In this document: positions 9,249-45,536 of the stretch, one piece after another
Layout: each line of letters opens with the position of its first letter
How positions within the stretch are numbered: the first letter of the stretch is position 1
Origin: Isoetes taiwanensis
Lineage: Eukaryota > Streptophyta > Lycopodiopsida > Isoetales > Isoetaceae
DNA length: 64,000 nucleotides
Direction of reading: 5' to 3'
Assembly: GCA_021234155.1 (NCBI GenBank)
Contig: JAJEKV010000003.1
Location: 16,538,386-16,602,385, forward strand
Translations under genes and position numbers: made by a program
The notes under the pieces: model-generated
Database searches by the model: none
What the model saw: the letters and a program-made list of their open reading frames with translations, nothing else
Told to the model about the DNA's origin: nothing

Positions 9249-9253
9249 ATAGC

Positions 9254-14426: not shown

Positions 14427-14740
14427 GCATTCATGATTGGGGTGACTTCTTTACCTGTTATCTCAATGACCTTGCCCTCTAGCGTCGTTAATGTTACTTT
14501 TCGCTTCCCACAATCAATTGTGGCTCCTGCTGGTCCAAGGTATTCCATGCCTATGATCAAGTCGTACTTGCCGATGTTCATCACTTCTGCTCCCATTCCA
14601 ACATTGATACCTGGCAAGTCTATGTCAAAGTTGATCCTCTTCCCTGCTGTGTGTCGGATTGCCCAACTAGCCAACACAACCTGTAACCCCTGTCCTTGCA
14701 CTCTGGAAGGTTCTTGATGTCGTGTAGGGTCAGGTAAGCT
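14396..14740 (-). pseudogene. Retropepsin-like region lacking a visible active site (element A)
   Basis: The C-terminal half of a retroelement aspartic protease is clear: LQVVLASWAIRHTAGKR, then KYDLIIGMEYLGPAGATID, the usual DLILGMDWL block. About 20 residues upstream of LQVVLA one expects the catalytic Asp-Ser/Thr-Gly loop; in its place the open frame reads NPVIIQGEAYLTLHDIKN. Either the loop has been deleted in this copy or this lineage uses a different arrangement. It overlaps the start of the RT-coding segment, as normal in a polyprotein. Confidence 0.65.
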
Positions 14741-15392: not shown

Positions 15393-15504
15393 GATGCTAG
15401 AGCTGCTGGGGTTATCAAACAGATGAGAAAGCGCCTCTGGGAGCTGAAAAATTGCCTTGGAGTGAGGAGCAAAGGAGTAGGGTGCAAATGAGGGTTGTGG
15501 TCCT

Positions 15505-15511
15505 CTTTATA
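15505..15511 (-). promoter_or_regulatory. TATA box and telo-box before ORF2 (promoter module 2)
   Basis: The minus strand reads CTATAAAGAGG. About 35 bp upstream in sense is CCAAACCCTAAAATTTTT, a telo-box. This mirrors the ORF1 promoter (43377-43384), including the CCAAACCCTAAAAT block. The distance to the ORF2 ATG is 113 bp. Confidence 0.6.
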
Positions 15512-15682
15512 GACAAAACCCTAATTTGGAAAAATTTTAGGGTTTGGGGATAATCTATCATTCTGAGGTGCTGCTATGGAAATCATAGGCAAACTAGGTT
15601 AAAGAATGCATCCTAAGGATCCTATTGCAACAAATTTCATCTAATTTGGATGTAGTTGGGATAAGTTAGATCTAATTTGGTT

Positions 15683-17649: not shown

Positions 17650-18532
17650 TCTCGCCAAAACAAGAAAATGGCTGGTCCCCTCAGCCATAAGGGGTCTTCA
17701 TATTTGCTCCAAAGTGTCTAAGTGAGAATTATGGTAAAGAGAAGGTGTAAAGTGTATGTGTTGATGAAATAGAAGTGAGTAGGGTGGTGTGAGGATGTAA
17801 GTGAGTGAGAAAAGGTGAGAATGAGTGTGAATATCATAAGGAAGTGATGGAAATGGAGTGTATGAGATGAGGTGAGTGGGTGGATAAATGTTGAAATCTC
17901 GCCAAAACAAGAAAATGTGTGTGAAAAAAGGTAAGAATGAGTGTGAATATGGTCAAGTAGTGCTGGAAAGGAAGTGTAGAAGGGTGAAGTGAATGTGCAA
18001 GAATTGAGATCTCGCCAAAACAAGAAAATGTATGCCTCCCTGATCCTTAAAAATGCAACTCTGCCATGATGGTGAAGCTGAATTGCAGAGTGCTTTCTTT
18101 TGGGAATGAAAACAAGAATAAGGAGTTTAAATGGATAGCAGGACCACTTATGGCAGATGAATAAAGATGGAGAAAGGATGCACCTGTCATGGAAACATAC
18201 AAACAAGTTAATCTTGATCTTTGCACCTCTGCTATAATGGTGAAGCTGAATTTGCAGAGTGCACATTTAGGGAGATAAAATGAGAGTGCATAGCTGAATG
18301 GAGGGCAGGACCACAATGAGACAGATGAATGAAGATGGAAAAAGGGTGCTCCTGCAAATGACACTTGGCAATTAATAAAAATCCTTGTTCTGAAGCTGTT
18401 TGATAGCTCATCCTTCATAATGGCTAATCTGCAAATATAAACTCAATGAAGACATTAGTTCTAAATTTAAGACAAAGTGAAATCTAATCCAACCTATCTA
18501 ATATTTAACTTTAATTCTAACTTGTCTAGGTT
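17650..18532 (-). repeat. Element B 3' UTR with iterated motif and hairpins
   Basis: The motif TCTCGCCAAAACAAGAAAA (sense TTTTCTTGTTTTGGCGAGA) occurs at 17650, 17894 and 18010, spaced by AC/TC-rich filler. Two copies of a hairpin unit follow (GCAACTCTGCC...GCAGAGTGC at 18054-18095 and 18225-18263). The motif copy at 17650 is exactly against the 3' LTR, where a polypurine tract is expected; only GGCGAGA is purine-rich. Confidence 0.75.
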
Positions 18533-20221: not shown

Positions 20222-21298
20222 TTAATCAGTGATGGTAATGTAGACCTCAAATGGCTTGTTCAAATCAGGTTTTTTTAGAAGAGTAGCCTCAGAAATGGAT
20301 TTTATAAGCAACTCAAAAGACTCCTGGCAATCTGATGACCATGTGACAGGGACATACTTGCTCTCAGATTTGGAAATCCTGCCTATCCTTGTCAACTTGG
20401 AAATAGGACTTATAATGTGAGCAAAATTAGGAATATACATCCTAAGAAAACTAGTCATGCCAATAAAACTTTTGACCTGCTTCAGATTTTTGGGGGGTAC
20501 CAGCTTTTTGAGAGCTTCAACTTTTTCTTGTGCCACTTGTATACCATTATTGGATACCTCATGCCCCAAAAGTTGCCCTTTGGATGCAAAAAAAACACAT
20601 TTCTTTGGGTTAAGATTGACTCCAAATTCCCTGCACAAAGAGCATATTTTTGCAAGCAATTCCAAATGATTAGTAGGGTGAGATCCTAAGCAAAGGTCAT
20701 CCAAATAAACTCTGAATTCTTGAGGAGACATAGGCCTTAAAATAACATCCATAGCTCTCTGGAAAGTAGCAGGTGCATTCATTAGTCCAAAAGGCATTCT
20801 CTTCATTGCATAAGTTCCCCAAGGGGTAATAAAAGAGGTCTTGGGTTGGTCTTCTTCCTTAATGCCAATTTGATTAAATCCTAAAAATCCATCTAGAAAT
20901 GAGTACACCTCTTTCCCTGCTACAACATATAAAATTTCTTCTAAAAAAGGCAAGGGATAGCAGTCCTTGATGGTAGCTTTGTTAAGATCTCGATAATCAA
21001 TGCAGATCCTTAAGGCACCACTTTTTTTCTCTACAGGTACAATGCAAGACACCCATCCTGGATTAATGATTTCAATAATAACACATGCATCTAGCATTTT
21101 ATCCAACTCATCTTTAATCAATCCCATCAATGAAGCATTAATTCTTCTCAGTTTTTGAAAAACAGGTTTACATCCCTCCTTAATCTTGATTTCAAATTGG
21201 CATACCTCAGCTTTAATACCAGTAAGCTCAGAATAATCCCAAGCAAACACATCTTTCCTTTCTTCAAAGAACATTTGTATATTCTCCCTATTTTGGTA
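20222..21298 (-). CDS. Reverse transcriptase (element B), C-terminal part of split pol
   Basis: Open frame reading FFEERKDVFAWDYSEL, FQKLRRINASLMGLIKDEL, RICIDYRDLNKATIKDCYPL, FLEEILYVVAGKEVYSFLDG, FNQIGIKEEDQPKTSF, MKRMPFGLMNAPATFQRAMD, and the catalytic YLDDLCLGS at about 20690. Then come LNPKKCVFFASKGQLLGHEV and FIGMTSFLRMYIPNFAHI. Upstream, the frame was cut by element C at 21299; the missing N-terminal neighbour resumes at 32421. The first ~28 codons of the open frame to the right of 21299 come from the LTR of element C and are not part of pol. One TAA terminates it at 20222. Residues needed for catalysis are intact. Confidence 0.92.
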   Translation of the reverse strand, partial: YQNRENIQMFFEERKDVFAWDYSELTGIKAEVCQFEIKIKEGCKPVFQKLRRINASLMGLIKDELDKMLDACVIIEIINPGWVSCIVPVEKKSGALRICIDYRDLNKATIKDCYPLPFLEEILYVVAGKEVYSFLDGFLGFNQIGIKEEDQPKTSFITPWGTYAMKRMPFGLMNAPATFQRAMDVILRPMSPQEFRVYLDDLCLGSHPTNHLELLAKICSLCREFGVNLNPKKCVFFASKGQLLGHEVSNNGIQVAQEKVEALKKLVPPKNLKQVKSFIGMTSFLRMYIPNFAHIISPISKLTRIGRISKSESKYVPVTWSSDCQESFELLIKSISEATLLKKPDLNKPFEVYITITD

Positions 21299-21299
21299 T

Positions 21300-23687
21300 T
21301 GTTGAAGGCTTTTTTGGCAAAACCTCCAACCTAATGGTTTAGAACCTCCAGGTTGCTTAAGGCAACCACTCTGAATCACCAAAACCTGGAAAAGTCACTG
21401 AAATTTCAAGATCAGACTGCTTTCCCTGAAGCAAAAAAAATGGTCTGACCATAAACTTGTGCCATTTAAAATCAAATCAAGCAAATCAATTGATTTTTGA
21501 TAGAGATCTTCTTAACAGATGTGGGAATCGGTGTTCAAAAGTCTAGATAGAGCTGAGATAAGCAAGGTTCTCAAAATCACACTTCTGACTGGGTCAAAAA
21601 TTGGTCAATACCAGCAACAGCAAGCTATTTTTTGCAGATTGAAGATGGAACAAGTTTTTTTAGTTTTGGAAATTTGAGATATCTCTGACTGGTGTCTAGA
21701 TTGAAGGCAACTTAAAAATTGCAGGAAATTAACAACCTAAAGGGTAGAATTGATTAAAATCTCCTATCAGTCTGACTGTGCAAGAACCCGAGAGCAACTT
21801 TACCTAATATGAAATCTAATTGGCTTTTTTGTGTTTTTTTCAAGTGTATCAGTTCGGAAATACCCTCTAGTTATAGTGCATAAAAATTTCAAACTAAATT
21901 ATTTTTTAGTTTTCTGAAAATCAAGGATTAAACTCAAGAACAATCACCACACGAATTTTTTTCTAAGGTCAGATTTTCATTCAAGAAGCTATTCAAAAGA
22001 TCAACATCAATTTCCCTGAGTCTAATGGTCTCAGGAAAAACAATCAAACAGATCAAATTGTCAATAATCTCAAAAGTGGTCGATAATCTCAATAGCCCGT
22101 CAATTCTTCCGAATTTGGAGGCTAGAGGAGCAAATGCAGCTAGGAATCAGTCAATCCGGCTCGGAAAAGCTTCAAGTCGACGTTCTTCACGCATACAACC
22201 CCCGGAAAACAATGCAAGATCTCAATCCATCTTAAACGGCCCTGTTTCAGTTCAAATCTTGGCAAATTCCTGTTTGAAATTCAAATTTTTGTTTGTTTAT
22301 GAGTCGGTATGGATGCGTGTAGGTGAATGGAGGGTGCAGAGCTATGATTAAGCAGGTAATTCCAACCAATTTTCCGGATCTTGGCCTTCATCGAAAATTA
22401 GGGTTCTTGAAAAATAGTCCAAATATCCCACAGGCATGTTTAGAAAAGCAGACTAGTGTATAAAAGGAATTTTACCGCAATTTCTTCCGAATAAACGTGC
22501 CATTATGAAGGGGGAACCGGCCCGTGCCGTTCCCCCCATGCCCCATGGTGCCACGTGGAGGGTGTGGATTGGTGGATGAGTCTGGCGGGGGGGTGTAGAA
22601 AATGCTAGGTGGGGTAGAATAGGAAAATTTTTTTTTTTTTTATAGAAAGGCCGCGAATCTCAAGGCAATAATCCAAAGGCCAAGATAAAGGATATTAGCA
22701 TATTCTCCCATCTCAATTGGAATCTTTTGCTAGGAATAATTTTTTGCATAGCTTAACCATAGGATGTGAAATATGGCAAAAAAAAGATGACTAGGCAATT
22801 GTGATGGCATATGACATGGCAATGGTGATGACTAGGCAAATGACATGGCAATGTATCTTGACTCAATTTTTGTCTAGCCAAAAACTTTTTCAACTTATGG
22901 ATGTGGATGACACGTGTATGGCATATATGATGATGAGGAGGATGATGTGCAAATGACATGGCACTCCCAAGTGGCAATATTACATAGAATCATAATCAAC
23001 TTGAAAAATGGAAGCCCTTTAGCCAATTTTTAATTTTTTGAACTTGGGGATGGAGGGAGTATGATGTGAGTGATGATGAGGAATGATGGAGATGTGAGGT
23101 GGCTTCCAAGGTTATACGTGGCACAATGCCACCTTTATGCATAACTTTTGCAAATTTCTTGACCATTTTTCTTTTTGGAAGCTTATCATGGAAATGAATG
23201 TATGGAGTTATGGAAGAGATGAGAGTGAAGCTTTTTTGGCTAGACAAAAAATGTTGTCAATTGGAAAACAAGGTTGATTGAGGATGTACCAACTTGGAAA
23301 TCAAGGAAAGAAGGTGGTATGGGGTGAAATAATGGTATAGGAATTTGCCTCAATATGAACTTGATCTAGAGTTATTTTGCACATACCATGGAACTCTTGG
23401 GGGTCTTCAAAACCTTCTTATGTCTTCAAAGTAAATGTTTGTGTCCTTTGCTCTCTTGTTTGCTCAAATATGATGACTTGACTTTTTCTTGCTCCTTGTG
23501 ACCATTTAATTTGATCTAATGAAATAGCTTCCATGAATGTCCTTCCTTAGTCTTCATCAAAAAAATTCTTCAATGATCTGAAACAAAATAATCCTTCAAG
23601 AGTGTAATCAGCTTAAAATCAGCATTGGCAGCTTGTCTTCTTCTTGTGTTGTACAATTTCCTCTTGCTGCCACAAAATGTGGCAGCA
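21300..23687 (-). repeat. Element C 3' LTR
   Basis: TGTTGAAGGC to TGTGGCAGCA. The last 23 bp are a hairpin with 10-bp perfect arms (TGCTGCCACA and TGTGGCAGCA). PBS-like TAGAACCTCCA at 21340-21350, and a second, weaker one (AAACCTCCAACC) near 21320. Confidence 0.95.
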
Positions 23688-24727
23688 TCATGCTAAAAAA
23701 GAAAGAGGAAGCTGGTCTGCCAGCTCCCATACTTCAACCTCACAGCTTCAGCATGTTGAGAAGTTTGCCTTGATGGGAAGTTGAACTAGGCACTTCTGAG
23801 GGAAATGAATGTGGCAAGGAGTGAAGTCATATGGAATAAATAGGCCAACAAGTGAGCAGATGGAAGTATGACAATGGCTGGTGCACCTGCATGGAAATAA
23901 AAATGTTCAGCATTTGCAAGCCTGCTTGGTGGGATGTTGATTTGGCAGTGCTTGCTAAAGGGATAGGAATATGAAAAGAAGAGTATATGATAAGGCTTGA
24001 TGCTAGGTAGGACCACAAATGTGCAGATGAATGATGGCCAACCCGTGCACTCGCATGACAAATAAATATGATTAGCATTTGCAAGCCTGCTTGGTGGGAT
24101 GTTGATTTGGCAGTGCTTGCTAAAGGAATAGGAATATGAAAAGAAGAGTATATGATAAGGCTTGATGCTAGGTAGGACCACAAATGTGCAGATGAATAAT
24201 GGCCAGCCTGATGCACCTGCATGACAAATAAAGATGATTAGCATTTGCAAGCCTGCTTGTGTGGGATGTTGATTTGGCAGAGCTTGCTAGAAGGACATGA
24301 TCATGAAGTGAAGGTAAGGAATAAGGCTCGGATCTTTGGGCGGGGATCACTAATGCACAGATGAATGATGGTCAGACTGGTGAACCTGCATGGAAAATAT
24401 TCAACCTCTTGAAGACAACATCCCTGGACTGCTAAACCCTGTTAAAAGCTACACATGACATTTTAAGCAGTAACAAAGTCAGAATAATACTTAATCAATC
24501 ACAAAGAACATACGTAACAAAATGTTTTTGATGTTTTTGATGTTTTTATCTTTTTATAATTTTTTCTCAAAGTTGAATTTATGTCTAAACACACTTAAAT
24601 CCTAATTTAAGTTAAGGATGCATCTTCAGATTATGCAAACAAACATAGGGCAACATGTTGTTGCCAATACCTCTTCAAATGTAGAATGTTGATAGGATTT
24701 GGCAGCTTATAGTTATCTTCCACGATC
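23688..24727 (-). repeat. Element C 3' UTR with ~165-bp tandem repeat
   Basis: About 3.3 tandem copies of a 165/166-bp unit at 23880-24395; the phrase CATTTGCAAGCCTGCTTG starts at 23911, 24077 and 24242. Units 1 and 2 are nearly identical, the last is diverged. Sense sequence next to the LTR is pyrimidine-rich (TTCCTCTTTCTTTTTT), with no clear polypurine tract. Confidence 0.85.
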
Positions 24728-26001
24728 TTAACCAATTATGAATCTCGTCCCCGCTACACCTATAACTTCAAAAGGACCCTCCCATAAATTCTCAAATTTG
24801 CTTGCAACCTTCTCCCTTGCTTTATTCCATTTCAAAACCAATTCCCCTTCCTTGAATATTCCTTGGAGCTTGTGAGCAGCTTTAAAAGCTGCAACATCCT
24901 TGGCCTTTTTAATCATAACAGCATTTTCTGCTTCATATCTGTGCTCATCCAATTGCATCAGCCTTACACACCTTTCCCTCACACTTCTTCCATTTCAGTT
25001 GATTCTATGAGCCAACCTTAATGAAGGTAACTCGAGCTCTATAGGAACCACAGTTCCACACCATAAACCAAGCTAAATGGAGTATGATTGGTAGAATTTT
25101 TTACTGTAGTTCTATAAGCCCACAATGCATCATAAAGTTTTTCATGCCAATCTCTTTTTGACAAACTAACAGTTTTTTGCAATATGGACTTAAGAACCTT
25201 GTTTGTTGATTCTGCTTGGCCATTTCCCCTGTGGATAGTAGGCTGAACTCTTTACATGCTTAACCTTAAGGATCTCTAGGAGTGTAGCAATAACTTGATT
25301 TACAAACTGAGTTCCTCTGTCAGATATAATTTTAAAAGGTATCCCAAACCTGCTGCAAATATTTTCATGCAGGAACCTAGCAGTTGTAAAAGCATTTGCT
25401 TCCCTAAGAGGTACAGCTTCTGCCCATTTAGTGAAGTAATCTGTTGCAACCAAGATATATTGATGTTGAGCAGATGAAGGGGGATCTAAGGGTCCTATAA
25501 AATCCAAACCCCAAACTTGGAATGGTCCAGGTGATACAATGGCGATGAAGTGGTGTTTGGCTGTAATATTCTTTTTCCAAAAATCTGGCACTTATGACAA
25601 CTTTTAATTTTATTATAACAATCTTTAAACAAGGTTGGCCAAAAATACCCTGACCTCATGATCTTCTTTGCTGTAGTATCTACAGCATAATGGCCTCCAC
25701 AAATGCCTTCATGGCATGCCTCTATGATTAATTCAGCCTCACCCTTGTCAACACACCTGAGCAGCACCCCTTCTTTATCCACCTTGCATAGCACACCTTC
25801 AATGAGCCTAAAAGTTTTACACTTTTCCTTGAACCTCCTCAGCTGGCTGCTATTCAGATCTTTTGGTATCTCAGCATGCTCCAAAAAATTCTTAATGTCA
25901 ACCTGCCAATCAATCATCTCACTGCCAAAAGCTACTATGTTAGTTGTATTTTCCTCATTCAAACCTTCTTGATCTTCATACTTAAACATCATATTAGGCA
26001 A
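24728..26001 (-). pseudogene. Integrase (element C), frame-shifted
   Basis: In sense order: EACHEGICGGHYAVDTTAKK and CHKCQIFGKRILQ (zinc-binding), then FQVWGLDFIGPLDPPSS (Asp 1), KIISDRGTQFVNQV (Asp 2) and SSAYYPQGKWPSRINKQ, where the frame shifts before the usual Glu helix; a C-terminal segment resumes at 24982 (FKEGELVLKWNKAREK, FENLWEGPFEV). Strongly similar to the integrase of element B. Frame changes near 25500, 25210 and 25000 make it inactive. Confidence 0.88.
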
Positions 26002-26605
26002 ATAAGCACTAGGATCTTCAAGAACTTTAATTACTTTAATGTCAATATCATAATTTTGTACCTTACAAGCCCATCTGCATAACTTTGCCTTTGGTAAATT
26101 TTTGCAAACAATAGTGTCAATGGGTTTTGCTTCATGAAAACACAGGTATGACTGTTAAGCGATAAGTGTCCATGCTTTTCCAATAAGAACATTAGTGCAG
26201 CAGCACTTTTTCTAATCTTTGATATCTAAGTTACGTGGTCGGACCATTTTTGCTTGAAAAGGCTATAATTCCATGTTCTGTGGCGGGGCTATACCTATGG
26301 CTCTCTTGGTCACACTTATATATGCAAAGGAAAGTTTTTGTAAGATCAGGAGGTTTTAAAATAGTAGGATTGCAAAGGGTTTCTATAATTTCCTCAAAAG
26401 CTCTCTGGCAAACATCATCCCATTTTATAAAAATATACTTACTCTCTTCCTTGGAGTATTTACCAACCCTGGTCAACCTGGCTATAGGACAAATAATGTG
26501 TGATAAGTGAGGCACATATATCCTAAGAAAACTTGTCATCCCCATAAAACCTTTAACCTTTTGAGGGTTTTACGTGGTGTCAACTTCTTCAAGGCTTCCA
26601 ATTTC
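26002..26605 (-). pseudogene. RT thumb and degenerate RNase H (element C)
   Basis: Open part 26545-26231: MGMTSFLRIYVPHLSHII, RVGKYSKEESKYIFIKWDD, then stops. Below it, pieces of the downstream RNase H are visible in shifting frames; the place of the last catalytic Asp reads DPSAYLPNMMF, close to the SPSLYLPYIF of element B, so loss of that acid is shared by the lineage. Confidence 0.7.
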
Positions 26606-27547
26606 CTACTGACCACCACGGATCCCTTGAGTTGATATCTCATGTCCAAGAAGATCCCCTTTAGAACAGAAGAAAACACATTTCTTAGGATTTAGGCTCA
26701 CTCCACTTCCCCTGCATAATGAACATATTTTTGTTAGCAAACTGAAATGATCTCTGATAAATGTGCCTAAACACAAATCATCCAGAAACACCACAAGTAA
26801 TTGTGTGCATCTCCTTGAAAATAGTGTCCATAGCTCTCTGAAAAGTGGCAGGAGCATTCATTAGTCCAAAAGGCATTTTTTTCATTGCAAAATTACCCCA
26901 AGGTGTAATGAAAGCAGTCTTTGGTTGATCCTCCTCCTTTATGCTGATTTGATTGAAACCTGAAAAACCATCCAAGAATGAAAACATTTCCTTACCTGCT
27001 ACTGCATATAGCACTTCCTCTAAAAAAGGTAGAGGATAACAGTCCTTAATTGTGGCTTTGTTGAGCTCCCTATAATCAATGCATATCCTAATTGTCTTAT
27101 TCTTTTTCTCAACAGGTACTATACAAGATAACCATTCTGGATTCATAATTTCTGCTATTACCCCAGCATCCTTCATCCTATTCAATTCTTCCCTAATCAA
27201 GGTCATCAATGATCCATTTATCCTCCTCAGTTTTTGTATTACTGGCTTAACTCCTTCCTTTGTTTTTATCTCAAATTCACAAATCTTCTTGTCAACCCCT
27301 TTCAGCTCATCATAATCCCAAGCAAATACATCACTCCATTCTTCAAAAAAATCTCTTACCCTACTCTCATCCTCTTCCTGAAATAAATCCCCTACATAAA
27401 GAGTCCTTTCCTGATTATTCTTTTTTATCTTCAGCTCCCTGGCCTGTTTTTCCTCACTAGCATTAATCACTAATATGGGATACAACTGCTGTAATTCTTT
27501 CCTCTCCAATTCTTCCTCATTGATGGCACCTTCAGCTAGATGCTCTA
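26606..27547 (-). pseudogene. Reverse transcriptase (element C)
   Basis: Open frame from the upstream RNase H continues: FFEEWSDVFAWDYDELKG, IQKLRRINGSLMTLIREEL, IRICIDYRELNKATIKDCYPL, SFLDGFSGFNQISIKEEDQ, MKKMPFGLMNAPATFQRAMD; a frame change at about 26800, then VVFLDDLCLGT (catalytic FLDD) and SLNPKKCVFFCSKGDLLGHE. A second stop region at 26605. Same architecture as element B. Confidence 0.9.
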
Positions 27548-27923
27548 ATAGAACATTCTGCAAAAGTGCATCAGCCTCTGAATTAAACTCCCTTGGTATA
27601 TGATGTATCTCCCATCTTTTGAAATCCAATAATTCTCCCAAAACTTCATCCCTTAAGAAAATCATATCCGGATTCTTTGACTGATATTCTCCCAATACCT
27701 GTTTGCAAACAAGCTGAGAATCTCCAAATATAACCAGCTCATTAATTCCCAAATGTTTGGCTTCTTGTAAGCCTGCTAATAGAGCTCTGTATTCTGCCAC
27801 ATTTGATGTTATCCCCTGAGTAAATTCTGCCAACTTTAGCCAAAAGCTTGTTAGAGTTATCTCGATAATTGCGAAGAAGCGAAGAACATTCAATTTTTTT
27901 GATATACCTCCATCAAACCACAT
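27548..27923 (-). CDS. Second RNase H domain upstream of RT (element C)
   Basis: Ribonuclease H of the archaeal-like type that plant Tat elements carry, here placed before RT. Visible catalytic residues: Asp in MWFDGGISKK, Glu in NVAEYRALLAGLQEAK, Asp in ELVIFGDSQLVCKQ, Asp in REFNSEADALLQN. It is in the same open frame as the RT and begins at about 27923, where the frame to the protease is broken. The matching domain in element B is 32579-32966. Confidence 0.85.
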
Positions 27924-28059
27924 GTATGCATGTTCACCAGATTTTTTAGCTTACCCTCTTCTATTGAACATGTTGCAATTGTAGGAACAAAATCTCATAT
28001 TCTCCACAAGGATTTTGGGATAGCATGTCTATCTCTAAGAAATTTAAGGCCTCCAGTTC

Positions 28060-28566
28060 TCAAACCCGTTGTAGAGAGTCACTTTCTTTTTCCCATCTGA
28101 AATAATACATTCTCCCTTGGACCACACCGGCCTTGCATCCACAGTAGACAACCATTTCCTGCCCAAAAAGTAGATCATAAATATCAGTATTCTCATCAAC
28201 CCCTTCAAAAGCTACCACCACAAAACTAGCAGCCACAATAATACCCTCAATGTCAACTAAAACACTACTAATTATCCCTATAGGATGAATTTTTGTGTTA
28301 GAGAATGATTTCAAAACCATAGGTGCTCGTCTATCACATTCCAAACCACAAGATTTCATTATGTGATGTGGCATCACATTCAAAGGGGAACCACCATCTA
28401 ATAATACTTTGGTTAGAACCTTTTTACCAATGTTTGCAACACAAGTAAAAGGCCCCGGATCAGCATCATCACCGGGATAATACAAGCTCACCAACATGAT
28501 TAGTAAACATATCCTCTTTTTTTCCTCATTTAAACTCAACAACTTTTTTTTTGTAAGAGGGAGCAA
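28060..28566 (-). pseudogene. Retropepsin (element C)
   Basis: Aspartic protease with active-site VLLDGGSPLNVMPHHIMKSC, followed by LVDIEGIIVAASFVVVAFEG and DIYDLLFGQEM. The active-site triplet reads Asp-Gly-Gly in place of Asp-Thr/Ser-Gly, as in element B, so it is a lineage trait. The C-terminus goes out of frame near 28140. Confidence 0.82.
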
Positions 28567-30010
28567 TCCTTAGCAAGGTTAGTAAGTCTATGCTTATCTT
28601 AGAATTTTTTTAGCAAAATCTCCAAATCTTCTCCTTCTTTATCTTTTCTTGCAAATTTTTGGGTGGAGGAGGTTGGTACTACCCTAATAATTTCATCTTT
28701 CCTCTCCTTATCTTGATGAACAACTTTTTTGAGCAAGGGGATGAGATAATACCTGATTGCCTTCAAAATCTTTACCTCTTTACTGCATTCCCTTCTTTGG
28801 TTACAAATTACGCTTCTTTGCCTTTGGATTCCAAATTCCTCGAGTGTGTACAGCCAAAATCTCTTCTTGATCCTCCATTTCTGCACAAATCGATAGATGC
28901 ACTTGTTTACATTTGCTTTGGCTAACTCTTGTCTAGCAAAATACTCTTTGACACTACACTTATCTTCAAGATGACCTATGCCCTTACAAAAAGTACAAAC
29001 AGGACATTCTTTACCATAATGCCCTCTCCTACCACACTTAAGGCAAGGCCTATAATAACAAACTTCAGAAGAATGACTATCCCTTAGACAATGAATGCAT
29101 GGGGGAAAGACCCTTTTCTCGGTTTGGATGCCTTCAACTCTTGAAGTTGTTTAGTCACTTCAGCCAATGCCTCAAATGCATCTTGAGCAACTTCGGATTT
29201 TTGAATCTGCGGTGGGGATAATTGCCTCCTCGGCCTTGGTAGTTCTCTTCTCCTTCACACGGCATAGATTGGCACTGATGTTGTGTATTCCTGTTCAAAT
29301 TCTGGTGAAAAGGATCATTAGTAAATCGCATCATAGGTTCATTGAGCGAGAAATAAACATCTGCTAATTCTGTAGCTTTAGTAAAGGCCTTATGTATGGT
29401 GTCAAATCCTTCAGAATCCTGTATCCTGGTCATCTTCTTGTGCACCCTAGGTCTGTCACTTAATCCATTTATAAAAGCTGCTACTAAATCCAAAGTATGA
29501 TGGAGGACATGCTCAGTTTGGCATTTTAACAAATATGCATTAAACCTTTCTGTATATTGATGAATAGTCTCACCATGCTTGATGTGGAATGAGTGTAGCT
29601 CCAGAGCTAATTCTCTTGGCTTAACCAATTTCCCAAATCTGGTTAGAAACTTAGGCACAATATCTTCCCATGTTCTAGTACCTAAAGCAGTCACATAATC
29701 CAACCATGCTCTTACCTCCTCATTCTTGAAACATTTCTTGAATTCTGAGAGCTTGCAGCCTTTCTTGTGTCCATAATCCTGGTAATATTCCTCAAAAACC
29801 TTCAAAAATAATTAGCATTTATGCTAGGATCAAAAGTTGGTGCGAGAACCGGCACACTAAGCTCATAAGATTGATGGAGACAAGTGTTCCCCAATACATT
29901 GATTCCTTGGGGCCGCAGTGAGAACTCTCGGGGTTTTCTTGTGCCTCTGGCTGCTTTCAAGATGATCATTTCCCTTCTTGGTGCCATTAATTCTTCTTCA
30001 AAGTATAGTA
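28567..30010 (-). pseudogene. Gag with zinc knuckles (element C)
   Basis: Capsid and nucleocapsid precursor. The likely start is MAPRREMIILKAARG at about 29988. Then come LSVPVLAPTFDPSINANYF, a one-base shift near 29805, and a 216-residue frame: EEYYQDYGHKKGCKLSEF, EVRAWLDYVTALGTRTWED, RFGKLVKPRELALELHSF, YTERFNAYLLKC and VAAFINGLSDRPRV (retrotransposon gag core). Past 29155 the frame is broken; zinc-knuckle Cys/His spacing (CGRRGHYGKECPVCTFC) is recognisable near 29040-28980. Homologous to the gag fragments at 1-412 and 33900-34900. Confidence 0.85.
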
Positions 30011-30028
30011 ATCCCGGTAGGACCTCCA
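30011..30028 (-). other. Element C primer-binding site, tRNA-Gln type
   Basis: Sense TGGAGGTCCTACCGGGAT, 3 bases from the 5' LTR. It is complementary to the 3' end of plant tRNA-Gln as I remember it (ending ...CCCGGTAGGACCT plus CCA). Confidence 0.75.
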
Positions 30029-30031
30029 AAA

Positions 30032-32416
30032 TGTTGAAGGCTTTTTTGGCAAAACCTCCAACCTAATGGTTTAGAACCTCCAGGTTGCTTAAGGCAACCA
30101 CTCTGAATCACCAAAACCTGGAAAAGTCACTGAAATTTCAAGATCAGACTGCTTTCCCTGAAGCAAAAAAAATGGTCTGACCATAAACTTGTGCCATTTA
30201 AAATCAAATCAAGCAAATCAATTGATTTTTGATAGAGATCTTCTTAACAGATGTGGGAATCGGTGTTCAAAAGTCTAGATAGAGCTGAGATAAGCAAGGT
30301 TCTCAAAATCACACTTCCCGACTGGTCAAAATTGGTCAATACCAAAGAATGACAAGCTATTTTTGCAGATTGAAGATGGAACAAGTTTTTTAGTTTTGGA
30401 AATTTGAGATATCTCTGACTGGTGTCTAGATTGAAGGCAACTTAAAAATTGCAGGAAATTAACAACCTAAAGGGTAGAATTGATTAAAATCTCCTATCAG
30501 TCTGACTGTGCAAGAACCCGAGAGCAACTTTACCTAATATGAAATCTAATTGGCTTTTTTGTGTTTTTTCAAGTGTATCAGTTCGGAAATACCCTCTAGT
30601 TATAGTGCATAAAAATTTCAAACTAAATTATTTTTTAGTTTTCTGAAAATCAAGGATTAAACTCAAGAACAATCACCACCGCGAATTTTTTCTAAGGTCG
30701 ATTTTCATTCAAGAAGCTATTCAAAAGATCAACATCAATTTCCCGAGTCTAATGGTCTCAGGAAAAACAATCAAACAGATCAAATTGTCAATAATCTCAA
30801 AAGTGGTCGATAATCTCAATAGCCCGTCAATTCTTCCGAATTTGGAGGCTAGAGGAGCAAATGCAGCTAGGAATCAGTCAATCCGGCTCGGAAAAGCTTC
30901 AAGTCGACGTTCTTCACGCATACAACCCCCAGAAAACAATGCAAGATCTCAATCCATCTTAAACGGCCCTGTTTCAGTTCAAATCTTGGCAAATTCCTGT
31001 TTGAAATTCAAATTTTTGTTTGTTTATGAGTCGGTATGGATGCGTGTAGGTGAATGGAGGGTGCAGAGCTATGATTAAGCAGGTAATTCCAACCAATTTT
31101 CCGGATCTTGGCCTTCATCGAAAATTAGGGTTCTTGAAAAATAGTCCAAATATCCCACAGGCATGTTTAGAAAAAGCAGACTAGTGTATAAAAGGAATTT
31201 TACCGCAATTTCTTCCGAATAAACGTGCCATTATGAAGGGGGAACCGGCCCGTGCCCGGCCCCCATGCCCCATGGTGCCACGTGGAGGGTGTGGATTGGT
31301 GGATGAGCTGGCAGGGGGGGAGGTAGAAAATGCTAGGTGGGGTAGAATAGGAAAATTTTTTTTTTAATTTTTATAGAAAGGCACGAATCTCAAGGCAATA
31401 ATCCAAAGGCCAAGATAAAGGATATTAGCATATTCTCCCATCTCAATTGGAATCTTTTGCTAGGAATAATTTTTTGCATAGCTTAACCATAGGATGTGAA
31501 ATATGGCAAAAAAAGATGACTAGGCAATTGTGATGGCATATGACATGGCAATGGTGATGACTAGGCAAATGACATGGCAATGTATCTTGACTCAATTTTT
31601 TGTCTAGCCAAAAAACTTTTTCAACTTATGGATGTGGATGACACGTGTATGGCATATATGATGATGAGGAGGATGATGTGCAAATGACATGGCACTCCCA
31701 AGTGGCAATATTACATAGAATCATAATCAACTTGAAAAATGGAAGCCCTTTAGCCAATTTTTAATTTTTGAACTTGGGGATGGAGGGAGTATGATGTGAG
31801 TGATGATGAGGAATGATGGAGATGTGAGGTGGCTTCCAAGGTTATACGTGGCACAATGCCACCTTTATGCATAACTTTTGCAAATTTCTTGACCATTTTT
31901 CTTTTTGGAAGCTTATCATGGAAATGAATGTATGGAGTTATGGAAGAGATGAGAGTGAAGCTTTTTGGCTAGACAAAAAATGTTGTCAATTGGAAAACAA
32001 GGTTGATTGAGGATGTACCAACTTGGAAATCAAGGAAAGAAGGTGGTATGGGGTGAAATAATGGTATAGGAATTTGCCTCAATATGAACTTGATCTAGAG
32101 TTATTTTGCACATACCATGGAACTCTTGGGGGTCTTCAAAACCTTCTTATGTCTTCAAAGTAAATGTTTGTGTCCTTTGCTCTCTTGTTTGCTCAAATAT
32201 GATGACTTGACTTTTTCTTGCTCCTTGTGACCATTTAATTTGATCTAATGAAATAGCTTCCATGAATGTCCTTCCTTAGTCTTCATCAAAAAAATTCTTC
32301 AATGATCTGAAACAAAATAATCCTTCAAGAGTGTAATCAGCTTAAAATCAGCATTGGCAGCTTGTCTTCTTCTTGTGTTGTACAATTTCCTCTTGCTGCC
32401 ACAAAATGTGGCAGCA
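30032..32416 (-). repeat. Element C 5' LTR
   Basis: Same ends, terminal hairpin and PBS-like site (30072-30082) as 21300-23687. Differences are scattered substitutions and small indels, the largest cluster near 30318-30360. Confidence 0.95.
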
Positions 32417-33326
32417 GGTATTCAATTAGATCTCCAACAAACAAGGTTCTAGTCTTACCATTTTTTGTGATGGTAATCTCTTCAGTATCCTTTTCCTCTG
32501 ATGCATTAATGGTTAGAATAGGACAAAGAGCCTTTACCTCACTAGCATCAAGGTCTTCCTCTGGAATAGCTCCCTCAGTTAGGTGTGACATAAGAGTTTC
32601 TCTGCATAGGGCATCAGCTTCCACATTTTTCTCTCTTGGTATGTGGGTAATCTCCCATGAAGCAAAACTCGAAAGTACTCCCATTACTTGGTTTTTTAAG
32701 AGCTCCATATCTGCATTTTTTGTTTGGTAGTCTCCTGAAACTTGTCTACAAATTAATTGTGAATCACCAAAAATGTGAATGTTGGCAATATCCATAGCTT
32801 TGGCTTCCTGAAGACCTGCAATTAAAGCCTTATATTCTGCTACATTAGATGTAATTTGGGGGAAGATTCTCCCTACTTTAGCTAAAAGTTTATGAGAGGA
32901 ATCTTTCAGAATAGCAGATGATGCAATATTTAGTTTTTTAGAAATACCTCCATCAAACCATAAGAATCCTGATGGCCCTTGTTTGCTGGGGAGTGCACAT
33001 TCCATAATGAGAGGAACCATTTCACATTTCCTTGGTCTTGTATTTTTTATTCTGTAAAATCCCAAAGGTTCTTCAATTAGCATTTCTTTGATAAAGTTTA
33101 CCTCTTCATTGGAACCATAGGAGCCATCTTGATTATAGATTGTAGCAGTTTGAGAACCATTGGAGATGGTACATCTCCCTTGAGACCAGACTGGTCTAGC
33201 ATCCACAGTGGCTAACCACCTTCTTCCTAAAAGTAAATCATAGATATCAGATTCATCCCCTATGTCTTCAAAAGCTACCACAATAAAATTAGCAGCTATA
33301 GTTATGCCCTCTGTATTGACAGGCAC
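32417..33326 (-). CDS. Protease tail and second RNase H upstream of RT (element B)
   Basis: Continuation of the element B polyprotein before the element C insertion. It opens with the end of the protease (EGITIAANFIVVAFED, DIYDLLLGRRWLATVDARP) and then carries a complete RNase H at 32579-32966: LWFDGGISKK (Asp125 of this frame), NVAEYKALIAGLQEAK (Glu164), IHIFGDSQLICRQ (Asp188), REKNVEADAL (Asp238). After it comes TRTLFVGDLIEYL, then the frame runs into the LTR of C at 32416. In the uninterrupted element the RT would follow directly. A single TAA (33327) separates it from the gag-protease frame; element C has a sense codon there, so the stop is a mutation. Confidence 0.9.
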
Positions 33327-35004
33327 TTAAGTTACCACACCAATAGGGGTGATCTTAGCATTATAAAAAGATCTCAATAGTATAGAAGCTTTCTTATCCA
33401 CCTCGAAACCACATTTTTTCATAATGTGATATGGCATAATATTTAGGGGGGATCCCCCATCAAGTAACACGTTTGAGAAGGTATAACCTCCTAAAGTAGC
33501 TGAACATGTGAATGCACCAGGGTCTTCTTCATTCTGTGCTAGAACAAGGTTAGTGGCATCAGTGAAATTCACACAAGCATTTAATACCTCACCACTAGTT
33601 TGCTGCAGTACCCTTTTTCTATAGCTAGGTGCAATCTTTAGCAATGTGAAAAGATCCACACTCACCTTGGAATTTTTAAGCAAAACATCAACCTCATCAA
33701 AGTCTTGATCTTTCTTACCATATTTTTGCTGAGGGGGTGGAGCTATAATTTGAGCAGGTGCTTCCACTACAGGTGGTGAAGACCTGGCAGTAGAATGCCT
33801 ACTTGGTTCAGCATGTGCATGAGCTTCATTCATGCTTCTAGTTTGCACCACCATAACTTCTTCAGATTTGGGAGCTTCTGTAGCTTGAATAAACCTTATA
33901 GAGGTGCTTGGTTCAGCAAATCTCACAGGAGGTTTAGGCTCTGGTCTCCTTTCTTTTTCCTGCTTAGCAAAATATTCCTTAACAGCACACCTAGCATCAG
34001 TATGGCCAACTTCTTTGCAAAAAGAACAAACAGGACATTCCTTTCCAAAGTGGCCTTTTCTATTACATTTGGGATACACTTGCCAATAGCAAATTTCTGA
34101 TGGATGAGAATTCCTATTGCAATGAATACATTCAGGGTAAATTTTACCTGTTCTTGCAGCCTTGAGTTCAACCAATTGTTTGGTTATTTCTGCTAAAGCT
34201 TCAGTAACCTTAGATAGATCTGACTTCACCTCTGCAACTTGAGAATTTGCTTCCTCCTCTTTAGATTTCTTCTTTTCTTTCTGTATGGCATAAACTGGAA
34301 TAGAAGGGTGATGATCATAATGTGCATCAGTAGCATCAGGGTAAAACGGGTCATGGCTATGGTGAGGAACATGGTGCTTGTCAGGTAAGGTAGAGAGCAT
34401 CTGAGTCAAGTCAGTAGTTTTGGCAAAAACTTTGTATATAGAATTAAATCCTTCAGCAGCTTGGATCTTGAGTGGTCTTCTTTCCAGACCATTGATGAAA
34501 GCAGTAACTAAAAACAGAGTTGGGATGGTGACTTGTGCTCTTTGACACCTGCTCATAAATGTACTAAACCTCTCCTTGTACTGATTCACACTCTCACCTG
34601 CATGTATATAGAAACCTTGCAACTCATTAACCAAATCTTTTGGAGCAGCTAACTTACCAAACCTGTCCAGGAACTTCTTGACAAGAAGTGGTACCCATTA
34701 ACTTTTCATAAGTTAACCAAGCACCAACTTCACTTTCTTCTTTGAAACATTTTTCAAATTCTGAGAGCTTGCAGCCCTTCTTGAAGCCATAATCCCTGTA
34801 AGTAGTCCTCAAATATTCTCAAAAAGTTGTTAGCACTCATACTGGAATCAAAAGTAGGCAAAGGAACAGGAACATTCAACTCAAATTGGTATGGCATGTT
34901 TTAGTTGAGAAACTTGAATTCAATGGCCTTTCTCTGCAATGATCTGATGCATCAATATCTTCTAATGGTTCTTGTTCTGCTGGAAATTTTTGCTTTGGAG
35001 CCAT
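33327..35004 (-). pseudogene. Gag and protease N-terminus (element B)
   Basis: The start is probably MAPKQKFPAEQEPL at 35004. The N-terminal part (MPYQFELNVPVPLPTFDSSM, 34900) and the region 34640-34900 have frame changes. From 34634 the frame is open for 435 residues: YKERFSTFMSRCQ, LVTAFINGLERRPLK, a coiled linker, two to three zinc knuckles (CIHCNRNSHPSEIC, CNRKGHFGKECPVC, CKEVGHTDARC), a Pro-rich stretch, and the protease active site NVLLDGGSPLNIMPYHIMKK. The active-site triplet is Asp-Gly-Gly. It ends at the TAA that interrupts the protease. RNA packaging and particle assembly are the family roles. Confidence 0.88.
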
Positions 35005-35024
35005 GAGTTCTGAAATCCAGGAAG

Positions 35025-35042
35025 ATCTCGGTAGAACCTCCA
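35025..35042 (-). other. Element B primer-binding site, tRNA-Gln type
   Basis: Sense TGGAGGTTCTACCGAGAT, 3 bases from the 5' LTR. It fits the 3' end of plant tRNA-Gln (…GGTAGAACCT plus CCA). It differs from element C at three positions, as expected for a different tRNA-Gln gene. Confidence 0.75.
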
Positions 35043-35045
35043 AGA

Positions 35046-36942
35046 TGTTGACCCCCAACCTGGCTAGAGAGTCAAACACAAGAAGCCAACTTGAGTTTTT
35101 ACTCAAGTTGGGGTTAGAACCTCCAGATCACTTAAGGTGATCAGTCTACACAAGAATTTCTCAGGGGAAAAGCTCAGTTATCAAGTATTCATACCTTTCC
35201 CAATTCTAGAATATGGAGCCCTTACTCAAGTCGATGTAGCTCTCATAGGCGGATTGATTTCCAGGGTCAAGTGATTGTGACTTGTACAGAAAAGTTATAG
35301 GCAAGCAAGAGTGAAAACCTTGACCAAGTTTGAGTTTTAATCTGCAAGATATTCGATCTCAAAGTTGGGTCAAATTTTGGTCAATATCAGTCAAAACTAC
35401 AAACAGATCTCAGAGTTTTGTAACTTGAGTTGCAGATAAAATTTTGAAGAGATTCCAAAAGTGCAGTATAGGTCCCAAAGGTGAGGGGCATGTAATCAAA
35501 TCATAATTTGGATCACTAAAACTATTTTTTTGGGACTGTTTTGTGAATATCAGTCTAAAATTGTATCAGACAGAATGCAAAAAATGGTAACTTGAGTTTG
35601 AGATGGATTTCTTTCGAAATTTTTGTGCACACAGGTGCAAATATGATAAGAAAGGAAGTGCAAATGGTCATATGCAAGAAAAAATGAAGGGATACTTCAC
35701 TGTAAAAATGTTTGTGATGCAAAAATACTAAAGGATCATGACAGTCAACTTTTTAAATACTTGGCAGGCAATTTTCATTGAAATGAAGGTAATATACGGT
35801 GAATAAGAGTCTTAGGATCATAGATCAATCATCAAGATAGCTTAGGAGGTCAATAAATAATATCAAATCAAGAATATCAGTCCAATTTTCTCAAATCGAA
35901 CTGTGGAACACTCAGATACTTCATGAACGTCTTCAGGTCATGCTCAGCATGTATCAATGTTGAGGTTTGATGCGTCTGGGCCTTCAAAAACTTCTGTCAT
36001 TGTTTTCCCCGGTATATAGATTTAGATTTAATGATTCTGGCATCTTAGGACTTGATTATAGGCTTAATGGGATGCTGATGAGCGGGAATCCAAGAATAGG
36101 TAGTTTTTGTAGCTTAAGATCCCAATTCCGGCGTGATTCGAGCAAGTTTCTAAGTTTAGGGTTCTTCAACTGTATTTTTCCAGAGTTTGCGCGATACGGT
36201 GGCCGTATTTTTTGAGGTATAAACCAAGAATATGCTGTATTTAGCCATTTCGAAAAGCTAGGCCATGGTTCAATAGAGATCCAAAAATAATTATGAAGTC
36301 ATTTGGGTCTATAGTAACCCTAATAATTTGGGAAATATGCTAGGTAGATACCAAGACTGGAATATTCCATGGGGGATACTTGGGTGGCATGGGTAATTAG
36401 GCCACATTTGGTAAATGAAGTGAGGGAGCATAAGAATTTGCAAATAAGGGTTGGGCTAGGGACATTTGCAAGAATGTAATATGGAAAAAATGAGAGAAAA
36501 GATATGGAATGGGAAGATCATCCATTGGGGTGAACAAAAGGCCTTTAGAAAAGAAGGATTTAGGCAAGCATGGTGCAATTGGCAAAAAAGTGAACATGGG
36601 AAGATATAGGCATGAGAGAAATATGACTAGGAAAATTTTGAAATGGAGGTAAGAATATGGATAAAAAATGGCTAGGAGGTGGAATCAAATACCATGGGGT
36701 CTTCCAAACTTCAAAAAGCATCTTCCAATCTTCACAACCCAGAATATCATAGAGCATCTTTTGAATACTTTTGACCTCAGATAAAGCATCTTCCATAGGA
36801 GTTGACCTTTGAAGATTAATATTGGTTGACCTTCATATCAATGTTGACTACCAAGCTCTTTTTTTATTTAACTCTTCCACAATAACTTGACCTACTTCAA
36901 TACATGAACCAACAGTTAGTATGTTGCCCTTTGGGGGCAACA
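35046..36942 (-). repeat. Element B 5' LTR
   Basis: Pairs with 15731-17649; a ~20-bp segment after CCAAACTT (near 36710) present in the left copy is missing here. Terminal hairpin at 36922-36942; PBS-like TAGAACCTCCA at 35115-35125. Confidence 0.95.
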
Positions 36943-42158: not shown

Positions 42159-43272
42159 CTAACAGTCTTCTTTCTTAATAAACCTAGCTAGTTTCATGTC
42201 CCTAGGCATACAAGTTACTCTATTTGCATGGAGGGCACATGGTAGAGAGTCTTCAAAATGTTGGACTAGCTTCTGCTCCGCCGCCTCCTGTAATACGAGT
42301 AACATATCATCTGTTACTCTCTTCGTGCTGTCGAACTGCTGCAAAATCTCGCGGGTCAGTCTCACGAAGGCAGCTCGTGGTATTAACAGCCCGTAGCTCC
42401 TTTGAAAATGGCGGATCTCCCAAGCAGCTCTCGCGAAGTATGAATCCGCCTTTCTCTTCATTGGCTTCTTTGGGGGTGTTGGTCTCTCCGGATGTTACCT
42501 TGTGCTTCTCGTAGTACGTCGAGTACTCATACATTTTCATGTATTGATTGTACCCCTTCAACTTCTTTCTGCACTCTTGCTCATGCTTGAGTACATAGGA
42601 CTCTCGTGCTGGCCTGCCCTTCTTCGGGTCTGTTGTTGGCTTTGGCCACTTGGGGTAAGGGGGTGCTGCTGCTGCCGATTCCTCCTCCTCGGCGTCGACA
42701 TTTGAAGGTCCCGAGCCTTTAATTGGGTGGGGGACCCTTGTCTCCTCCTCGTCCAACTTAGTGTCCGAGGATGAAGATGGCAGTCTGTCGGGCTCCCGCT
42801 CCGTTATGGTGACCCCCTTAGCTGGTGTAGACTTCTTCTTGCGCCGGGGTTCCTTAGGCACCTCGGGATCCTTCCCTTTGTCCTCTTTTCGCTTTTGGCG
42901 TTCTTGCCTCAGCCTCTTCTGCTCCATCTTCTCTTGGATTCTCTTTCTCTTTGCTGCCCTCTTCCTCTTCCCCATCTTCTCAATCTTCTTTCTGCGCACC
43001 ATCTTCTCTGGTAGATCTTCGTCCTCGTCCTCCTCGTTCTGTCCTCCATCACCCTGACTCTCAGGATTTTCCTGCTCTTCCGTATCTTGGGCGTGTTCTT
43101 CTTGATCCTGCTGCTCTTGATCCTCCTCCTCGACATCGGGATTTGGGTCCGGGTTCTCCTCTTGCCTGGCTCGCTCCTGAGTCTCTCTGGCCTTCTGTTG
43201 AGTAGCAAGGACTTGGGCGCTGACGAAATCATCAGGTACTACCATCCGAGCATTTTGTTTGGTCCGGGCCAT
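42159..43272 (-). CDS. ORF1 of element A: histone H3-like protein with H3-tail mimic
   Basis: About 370 codons. The start ATG at 43272 has a strong plant context (AAACATGGC) and gives MARTKQNARM; after Met removal this equals the H3 tail at 7 of 8 residues through Arg8, with Met at position 9. Residues 30-90 are acidic (EEEDQEQQDQEE, EEDEDEDLPEK). Residues 91-150 are Lys/Arg-rich and helical (VRRKKIEKMGKRKRAAKRKR). A Ser/Pro linker follows to about 265. The C-terminal ~98 residues (42461-42159) are an H3 fold: AAWEIRHFQRSYGLLIPR (alpha-N, alpha-1), FVRLTREILQQF, LQEAAEQKLVQHFED (alpha-2), CALHANRVTCMPRDMKLAR (loop 2, alpha-3). By hand count 44 of 90 residues equal plant H3 with no gap. The two halves are out of frame by one base at a G5 run (42472-42476), either a mutation or +1 frameshifting. 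It sits where gag is expected, with its own TATA box. Confidence 0.88.
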
Positions 43273-44000: not shown

Positions 44001-44013
44001 TGCTCTGATACCA
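44001..44013 (-). other. Element A primer-binding site, initiator tRNA-Met
   Basis: Sense TGGTATCAGAGCA, one base from the 5' LTR. It is the usual initiator-Met PBS of plant Ty3 chromoviruses. Confidence 0.95.
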
Positions 44014-44014: not shown

Positions 44015-45531
44015 TGTGACATCCCCTACTTCCTCTACAATGCTCCCATCATATCAGAAGGCGGAGTTCATCCCCCTGACAGCCAAACTGGCAAGGGCCA
44101 TCCACCTGACACCAATCCCAAGTGGATGGGTCATTTGCCCCGTCTTCCTTCGGGATCGACCTAGCTGCGGAAGCGTGAATAAACATGAGCACATGACATC
44201 AATACATCAATAAGATCACCTCGAAGGGTGAATACACCATAATATAGCATGAGTGACAACATCAACATAAATAATAGCAACAAAAGGGAATCCTACCCAG
44301 GGCTCAGACTCATGGGGAATCGACTGACGGCTTGGGTCTCCAGAAGTCAATGCAGACTGAATTCATGGCAAATGGATTGGTCTGGTATAAGAACATGGCT
44401 GTTGGGTAGTCCACATCCGCCCCTCCCGTGCACACTTTGCAAAGTAGGTTGAAAAGTATTGGGACCGGACCGTAGCCTGCCGGGTACATAGCCAAGGGGG
44501 ATATTGCTGGGTTGCATCTCCCCAGCCCCGATGAGGCAGGAGGAGAGTCACCTCCCCTCCAGAGGCATGCATGCCCATCACAGGCGGCTAGAGGGCCACT
44601 GCCCATATTCGACTTGAACCCCATTGAAGGTGACGCATCACCCAAGAGGTGTCGAGCTCATGCCTTGCCCACACGCAGTGGCAAACCATTAAGCCTAGTC
44701 CACTAAGATCCCTGGTAGGCTTTACACACCAGAGGGATCAATCAGTGATGGGACAAGTCCCCCTTATTCCACTGGTCTAGCCCCGCCACCCACAACCAGG
44801 CGGGCTCTTGCACACGGGCCGCATTAATTTGGAATTAATGAGGCTATATAGATACATCAACTACTGAGGCTTTCAGGGTCTCTACCCCCCTTCCCAATAC
44901 ACAGGAGAGCATCTATCAAAGAACATCATCATCATCAAGACTGAAATATAAAATAACATCTAATCTATCTACCTAAACATCCACAGTTAGGTTCCTTTGT
45001 TAGGGCTTATGATCTCAGAATCTATAAGGCTTCTAAGGCTGAACTAACATGCTAAACCAGCTCATTGCCGGACTAAAAGTTGGCATTGCACAACAGAATG
45101 ACCATTTACCTGATCCCTGACTTGCTCCAGCTCCTCGGAATGCGTCCATGCCTTCAATCAGGCTGAAGGCAGATGCTCCTGGAAGATCTGTTGTGCAAAT
45201 GCGGCTTATCGGCGCCTGGCAATGCGAACTAGGATCTTGGCTTGGCCGGAATGGCCCAAGGAAGCCAAAATGCGAAAGGGAAAAGGTTTAGGGTTTCCCT
45301 TTTGGTTCCTTATATGGGAACTTTTAGGGTTAGAGTTAAAAGGGATCAAATGGGTTATTGCCACTTGGCAAGGGGAGTTATTGTATATGTTTATTACGCA
45401 TGCACAACATCCGAGGTTGCCCCCCTAGGTAAACCCTTCACGGCTCTCACGTACTTGTCATGCTGACATGTACGTGTGACGTGGCAGTATAATATACGTA
45501 TTCAGATCGTATGTTATACTGGAACGTCACA
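44015..45531 (-). repeat. Element A 5' LTR
   Basis: TGTGACATCCCC to GGAACGTCACA, 1517 bp. Pairs with 9254-10711 with many substitutions and several indels, so element A is older than B or C. Confidence 0.92.
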
Positions 45532-45536
45532 ACAGC

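Follow-up and report, generated by a model that had tools for sequence, protein, structure and literature searches.

Single H3 proteins are encoded by DNA viruses, and some of them have extended tails, by 53 residues in DSLPV1 and by 68 in a mimivirus-related one, according to the available sections of a review (PMC9145170). Altered H3 tails are also described as inhibitors: in fission yeast, H3K9M blocks H3K9 methylation dominantly by trapping Clr4, a G9a complex has been solved with ARTKQTARMSTGGKA, and phosphorylation of S10 or a mimic of it weakens H3K9M binding, the mimic lifting the block in cells (accessible parts of PMC5030085). At K27, Met or Ile inhibits but Lys or Arg does not (accessible parts of PMC6513997). 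The word "histone" is absent from a paper on additional ORFs in plant LTR elements (PMC7264820) and from two Isoetes genome papers. Among the entries listed by searches of open PMC text, judged by their titles and the beginnings of their abstracts, we found no case of a retrotransposon-borne core histone. Nor is a retrotransposon that encodes one known to us. Here we describe a large retrotransposon family in Isoetes taiwanensis that carries its own H3, maintained by selection.

The window, by which we mean the whole 64,000-nucleotide stretch of I. taiwanensis DNA that was analysed, contains an element on the minus strand that spans positions 45531 to 9254 and has an LTR at each end. The 5' LTR (44015..45531, minus strand) has TG...CA ends and matches the 3' LTR of the ORF1-bearing element (9254..10711, minus strand), with which it pairs, at 95.6% over 1197 nt and at 87% over a further 262 nt; the divergence between the two is K2P 0.052 over 1446 sites. 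The flanks, ATAGC (9249-9253) and ACAGC (45532-45536), are the same at four of five bases and may represent an eroded target duplication. The primer binding site (PBS) TGGTATCAGAGC (44002..44013, minus strand) follows the 5' LTR on its inner side; we take it to match the initiator Met tRNA, and the related copy L031 has the identical 12 bases. The protease region of pol is an ORF at 14396..14701 (minus strand) that aligns to the equivalent region of other copies, an assignment supported by the aspartyl protease Pfam match found in a complete copy of a sister subfamily, C. Reverse transcriptase (RT), RNase H and integrase occupy several broken frames at 11692..13998 (minus strand), where tblastn gave 85-90% to the pol of a relative in which the Pfam domains were found, and the integrase C-terminus is followed into a chromodomain at 11410..12132 (minus strand; PF24626 2.3e-21, PF00385 2.6e-8, the latter 7.4e-9 in copy L036). 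The LTR pair ending in TG..CA and the PBS, which together with this chromodomain mark a chromovirus, are present in the window's element and likewise in the C copy. The 5' LTR, the PBS, the H3 fold of ORF1 and pol all lie on the same strand, as the original prediction had stated.

The window's copy is far from intact. A gag query against the 64-kb window found no gag in it, and a broken remnant of a second added gene, ORF2, was recovered at 14659..15598 (minus strand) in four pieces at 54-82% by tblastn with a relative's ORF2. Separating ORF1 from pol are 21 kb of nested LTR elements (15731..36942, no strand assigned) plus other sequence amounting to about 5 kb. The nested element's LTRs (15731-17649 and 35046-36942) are 97.2% alike, and the repeat pair within it (21300-23687 and 30032-32416) is 98.4% alike. 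Between ORF1 and the nested element, two minus-strand ORFs at 37500-39707 have the look of a hAT/ZBED-type transposase by eye, and the larger had no Pfam match above the cut-off. Elsewhere in the window, a cluster at 414-5793 is made up of copies, some direct and some inverted, of sequence akin to the nested element's LTRs, and a long purine-rich, low-complexity tract with degenerate AAAGGG-like repeats lies at 53895-55507.

ORF1 (43272-42159, minus strand) is laid out as an H3 tail beginning MARTKQ, a charged linker of about 270 residues and an H3 fold. In the window's copy, which is about 53 nt short of the intact 1167-nt copies, these parts are divided over two frames out of register: frame 1 (42307..43272, minus strand) encodes the tail MARTKQNAR and the acidic and basic linker and, once past a frameshift, terminates at 42307, and frame 2 (42159..42461, minus strand) encodes the fold. 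The original prediction had read 43272-42159 as a single ORF of about 370 codons, which is not the case here, and had not mentioned the N-terminal H3 tail. The fold itself, which it had recognized from 44 identities in 90 residues counted by hand, is confirmed. The segment 42461-42159 matched Pfam PF00125 at 1.9e-19 with 70.6 bits, the 60 listed of 185 PDB sequence matches were H3s with a best E of 4.6e-19, and the three PDB alignments printed were gapless over 87 residues. Compared with a host H3 (L032), 45 of 92 residues are identical; among six-frame segments of at least 25 aa in the window, the fold alone reached E<=1 against host H3. Residues C110, H113, R116 and D123, which together with L126 we take to form the H3-H3 interface, are retained in the window's fold, in agreement with the prediction, and in four intact relatives, and K115 has become N in the window's copy. 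Loop 1 of CENH3 is longer than that of H3. The window's fold aligns to canonical H3 without a gap in this loop, so it is not CENH3, and the earlier statement that it has no extra loop-1 residues stands.

To place this copy in its family, we searched the I. taiwanensis assembly (1,658,258,908 bases in 1110 contigs); the candidate numbers given here for genome searches with ORF1, the histone profile and the N-terminal domain are not copy counts. The ORF1 DNA search gave 1087 first-look candidates, and the 40 that were scored all matched at 78% or more, with the window itself at 100%. For 20 window-family loci the context was fetched and protease or RT was sought within 10 kb. By hand counts of DNA matches, the leader between LTR and ORF1 is found upstream of ORF1 in 19 of the 20, LTR sequence on the same strand within 2 kb upstream in 12, and the ORF2 region downstream in 15, a tally that leaves aside L012 and L013, in which only the previous tandem unit has it downstream; protease or RT was reached inside 10 kb in 8. 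Four of the 20 have an ORF1 that is uninterrupted between its Met and its stop codon, with a length of 385 or 388 aa. Internally deleted copies occur in the family, which made a sample of eight loci chosen by RT and read at one fixed distance unreliable: ORF1 was seen in one of the eight, and a nearer look at two of the other seven found the ORF1 start with an internal deletion in one and no ORF1 in the second. In the RT list, of which 40 were scored, five other matches lie 3.0-7.4 kb downstream of scored ORF1 matches. At L012, L013 and L009 (G000:C1072:5319877-5372135), ORF1, part of the leader and the ORF2 region form head-to-tail units of about 2.3-2.4 kb. A second diverged copy, L020 (G000:C1034:16606968-16608073), adjoins the window on the right; it has the region after ORF1 in common with the window copy, and both are without a stretch of ORF1.

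The order in other copies is ORF1, ORF2 and then gag-pol with a chromodomain. In L028, a separate gag ORF precedes the protease (Retrotrans_gag 5e-16, Ty3_capsid 6e-15), and this gag was matched in 7 of 7 copies checked. Gag, protease, RT, RNase H and integrase follow one another in relatives, in whose gag a CX2CX4HX4C motif can be made out by eye, with the Pfam knuckle models below the cut-off. Because a separate Gag is encoded downstream in other copies, ORF1 is an added gene and not Gag. The proposal of a captured H3 in the gag position is thus borne out in that a chromovirus carries the H3, but not as to the position.

A genome search with the histone profile revealed further carriers of H3. 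It gave 8705 first-look candidates, of which 150 were scored. The top 15 matches, at 164-165 bits over the whole profile, were taken as host H3s, L032 being read as an example; the remaining scored matches reached 144-155 bits, many of them within open frames of 400-490 aa. Some of these loci were read and assigned to four sister subfamilies, B-E, whose long proteins open with an N-terminal domain of some 200 residues, continue with a linker that varies and end in a near-canonical H3 fold; in 8 full copies this fold agrees with host H3 at 75-81 of 92 residues. One C copy is structurally complete: between LTRs that are 96.7% alike over 1169 nt, a PBS is followed by ORF1 (485 aa), ORF2 (470 aa) and a gag-pol frame of 1385 aa. 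In the B copy L030, ORF2 and a broken gag-pol with a chromodomain lie downstream of ORF1, with no LTR pair or PBS in the flanks fetched. The reading of D and E covered ORF1 into ORF2, which is broken there; B, D and E are thus known from partial reads, and structural completeness from the one C copy. B and C are 45% alike in both ORF1 and ORF2, and C matches the window family at 76% over 651 residues in pol and 48% over 397 in gag. The window-family ORF2 matches that of B at 37% over 62 residues (E 4e-12), its first part having no match to B, and pairwise BLAST gave no match between it and the C ORF2.

The C-type N-terminal domain used alone as a query gave 2841 candidates, of which 150 were scored and 40 were stop-free in frames of at least 400 aa by hand count. 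The domain was rejected as a part of window-family ORF1, there being no match in the 4 intact copies. Homologues of C ORF1 outside the element were hard to single out, as that search was swamped by H3-domain proteins (120 of 4616 listed). One protein in ENA, P0004 (402 aa), is another long-tailed H3, with MARTKQTA, about 265 other residues and an H3 fold; a kinship of its insert with the element's N-terminal domain, suspected by eye, was dropped since the profile gave no support. ORF2, between ORF1 and gag, encodes an unknown protein of about 470 aa (L031, L030, L058-L060; window 14659-15598). It had no Pfam or PDB sequence match, and among the 8000 best-sharing protein-database candidates one homologue was found, P0132, which lies on a 2953-base ENA contig; the search in viral contigs gave nothing useful. 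The structure models were weak (mean pLDDT 58 for ORF1 and 44 for ORF2), and Foldseek with the ORF1 model returned no fold match at E<=0.001.

The substitution pattern indicates that the histone was maintained while it spread. When 21 window-family copies are compared in pairs, dN/dS amounts to 0.15 in the fold, 0.25 in the tail and 0.19 over ORF1 in its entirety, so that the dN/dS check proposed for the fold came out as purifying selection. Variants of the fold common to at least three copies comprise 40 synonymous and 9 nonsynonymous changes, as against 36 and 84 among singletons (Fisher p 7e-10). Given that the shared variants are mostly synonymous and the singletons neutral-looking, the gene appears to have been selected while the element was active and to have decayed after insertion. 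In B-E the fold has a dN/dS of 0.05 (24 copies, every one chosen for its histone score). Eight pairs of full B-E ORF1s were compared part by part: values of 0.00-0.06 were obtained for the fold in 6 pairs, of 0.12-0.16 for the N-terminal domain in 4 and of 0.12-0.66 for the linker in 5, the remaining comparisons being saturated. Such strong constraint on the fold suggests conserved host partners, for instance H4, H3 chaperones and DNA.

That the H3 is a gene of the chromovirus is supported by the 40 matches, the leader in 19 of 20 loci, the purifying selection and the same place in the C copy. The fold recurs in full-length LTR elements as the complete C copy, and in window-family matches with leader and ORF2. 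A separate H3 retrocopy inserted into one copy of the window's element, one of two outcomes that would have told against the original prediction, was not what we found, and the shared leader and ORF2 context and the substitution pattern contradict it. On the other outcome, copies of the element that lack the ORF, the eight RT-chosen loci bear in part, with ORF1 in one and its start in a second.

Close inspection of the fold distinguishes the subfamilies. C110, H113, K115, R116, D123 and L126 are kept in all 12 intact copies tabulated. Of the residues that we take to be H3's DNA contacts (R63, R83, F84 and Q85), R63, R83 and F84 are retained in 8 of 8 B-E copies, and in all 4 window-family copies R63 is replaced by P, F84 by V and Q85 by T, with R83 retained in 2 of the 4. 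Because of these losses, the window-family protein may not build ordinary nucleosomes. At positions 87-90, the 8 B-E copies have HAIL, FAIL or FALL versus SAVL in the host; TAIL is present in two of six single viral H3s that a review, in its available sections, expects to enter host nucleosomes (PMC9145170).

As for the origin of the histone, the tree groups B-E (79/16) and sets the window family on a long branch beside other long-branched and outgroup rows, away from B-E, and a single clade of all elements is not rejected (AU p 0.29). The fold sequence cannot decide the matter, but the similar place and order and the related gag-pol argue for one capture of H3 by the element lineage. By eye, B-E have RKYQ (one RNYQ, two RKFQ) and mostly QEAAE, as do the plant rows, whereas the animal rows have RRYQ and QEASE, which fits a plant source of the captured H3. 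The synonymous distance between B-E and host H3 is near-saturated, with pS 0.84-0.92 in four copies.

The tail of the window family deserves separate consideration. Residues 1-8 are those of H3, and the tail reads ARTKQTARM. Among 21 window-family copies, position 9 is Met in 19 and Ile in 2, K4 is present in all 21, R8 in 18, and position 10 is Val in all 21; a further copy, L073, also has Ile at position 9. It should be noted that Ile may result from ordinary decay of the Met codon and carries little weight. B-E are without a K9M-like tail, E keeping MARTK and B-D having other N-termini, although the alignment places a lysine at H3 position 4 in 8 of 8 B-E copies. The element's H3K9M-like tail peptide is ARTKQTARMVVPDDF. 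With Met or Ile at position 9 and Val at position 10, this tail has the form of the inhibitors, and phosphorylation at position 10 could not lift a block that it imposed. On this basis, the window family may be a natural H3K9M-type inhibitor that traps host H3K9 methyltransferases, with its sisters loading a large-tailed H3 into nucleosomes, a specific reading that we put forward tentatively and consider possible but doubtful. Speaking against the H3K9M-type reading, the residues after position 9 are VVPDD and not the STGG of H3, the family is diverged, and Met is encoded by a single codon. If true, a retrotransposon would disarm silencing through a captured and altered histone, a natural case of a histone mutation known mainly as cancer-type or engineered.

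More broadly, we propose that ORF1, which sits between the PBS and ORF2-gag-pol in the window family and in the one complete C copy, is probably an added gene of the chromovirus lineage that acts in chromatin, and not a structural Gag. The protein would be imported as histones are, with host H4 as its partner. Nucleosomes would take up the near-canonical forms, their large N-terminal domain standing in for the modifiable H3 tail, and in the diverged window family the exposed ARTKQTARM tail may serve as an H3K9M-type decoy for H3K9 methyltransferases. Either way, ORF1 would benefit the element at the level of chromatin, where the silencing of new or transcribed copies would be altered or prevented. 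If it does act in chromatin, a genome parasite has captured the protein on which the host writes its silencing marks. The existence of internally deleted copies suggests that ORF1 may not be needed in cis.

A role in the particle would place the protein elsewhere: ORF1 might bind cDNA or RNA during packaging or escort the pre-integration complex into the nucleus, its H3 fold condensing DNA. Its place before gag and its acidic and basic linker are in keeping with this, and certain viruses pack their genomes with histone doublets (PMC9145170, available sections). Yet the relatives have a separate Gag, and a fold constrained several-fold more than the N-terminal domain, with its H3-H3 surface kept, is not readily explained by DNA packaging alone, which leaves this role plausible but unlikely. 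We regard as more improbable still that ORF1 steers integration, the H3 part entering chromatin and the tail or N-terminal domain recruiting an integrase complex whose chromodomain reads histone tails; the element does have a chromodomain, and chromodomains are said to direct integration toward heterochromatin (PMC9289625, available sections), but a chromodomain alone would do this, as in ordinary chromoviruses.

Two other accounts deny the element any use of the histone. The broken window copy, the 4 of 20 intact window-family ORF1s and the internal deletions are what one would expect of a passenger, a functionless captured host fragment or an H3 retrocopy in one element. That account is very hard to reconcile with shared changes that are mostly synonymous beside neutral-looking singletons, with the same place in the window family and the C copy, and with the keeping of 75-81 of 92 residues in B-E at the synonymous distances from host H3 given above, and we consider it highly improbable. 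Least credible of all is a host histone variant locus, such as CENH3 or a long-tailed H3, overrun by transposons. An H3 fold with a tail would suit it, and long-tailed H3s occur elsewhere, but the relatives are many and dispersed (40, about 135 and 150 scored matches), and the ones whose surroundings were read are flanked by LTR, leader and gag-pol.

The element resembles chromoviruses in its LTRs, PBS, gag-protease-RT-RNase H-integrase order and chromodomain, and differs by a pair of added ORFs upstream of gag, of which the first encodes an H3 fold. Orchid Ty3 elements with an AlkB-type demethylase have likewise retained, through amplification, an additional ORF captured from the host, whereas the available sections of the same paper name no histone among the additional ORFs of plant LTR elements (PMC9289625). 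The nearest functional parallel, by analogy, are the single viral H3s with extended tails, which likewise comprise one H3 without other histones, an N-terminal extension and a changed chaperone site, and whose fold identity to host H3 of 73-87%, with about 73-89% taken as the range of the class, compares with 75-81 of 92 in B-E; the element differs in its LTR retrotransposon carrier and in an extension of about 300 residues with a novel domain (PMC9145170, available sections). The window family stands apart from them, its fold being only 45/92 identical to host H3. The anti-silencing protein VANC comes from VANDAL elements, which are DNA transposons, and is not known to have a histone fold. 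It is transposon-encoded and counters host silencing, as we suggest for the element, but is sequence-specific (PMC10398659, available sections). The bracovirus H4 CvBV-H4 is a tail-extended histone that enters host nucleosomes, as the element's protein may, but is an H4 of a wasp-borne virus (PMC9145170, available sections). With H3K9M, K-to-M inhibitors and EZHIP, the window family shares a tail identical over nine residues, ARTKQTARM, to the H3K9M peptide crystallised with G9a, and Met and Ile at the critical position, both of which inhibit in the K27 case (accessible parts of PMC5030085 and PMC6513997); it differs from them in the VVPDD that replaces STGG after position 9, and would be their putative counterpart in a retrotransposon.
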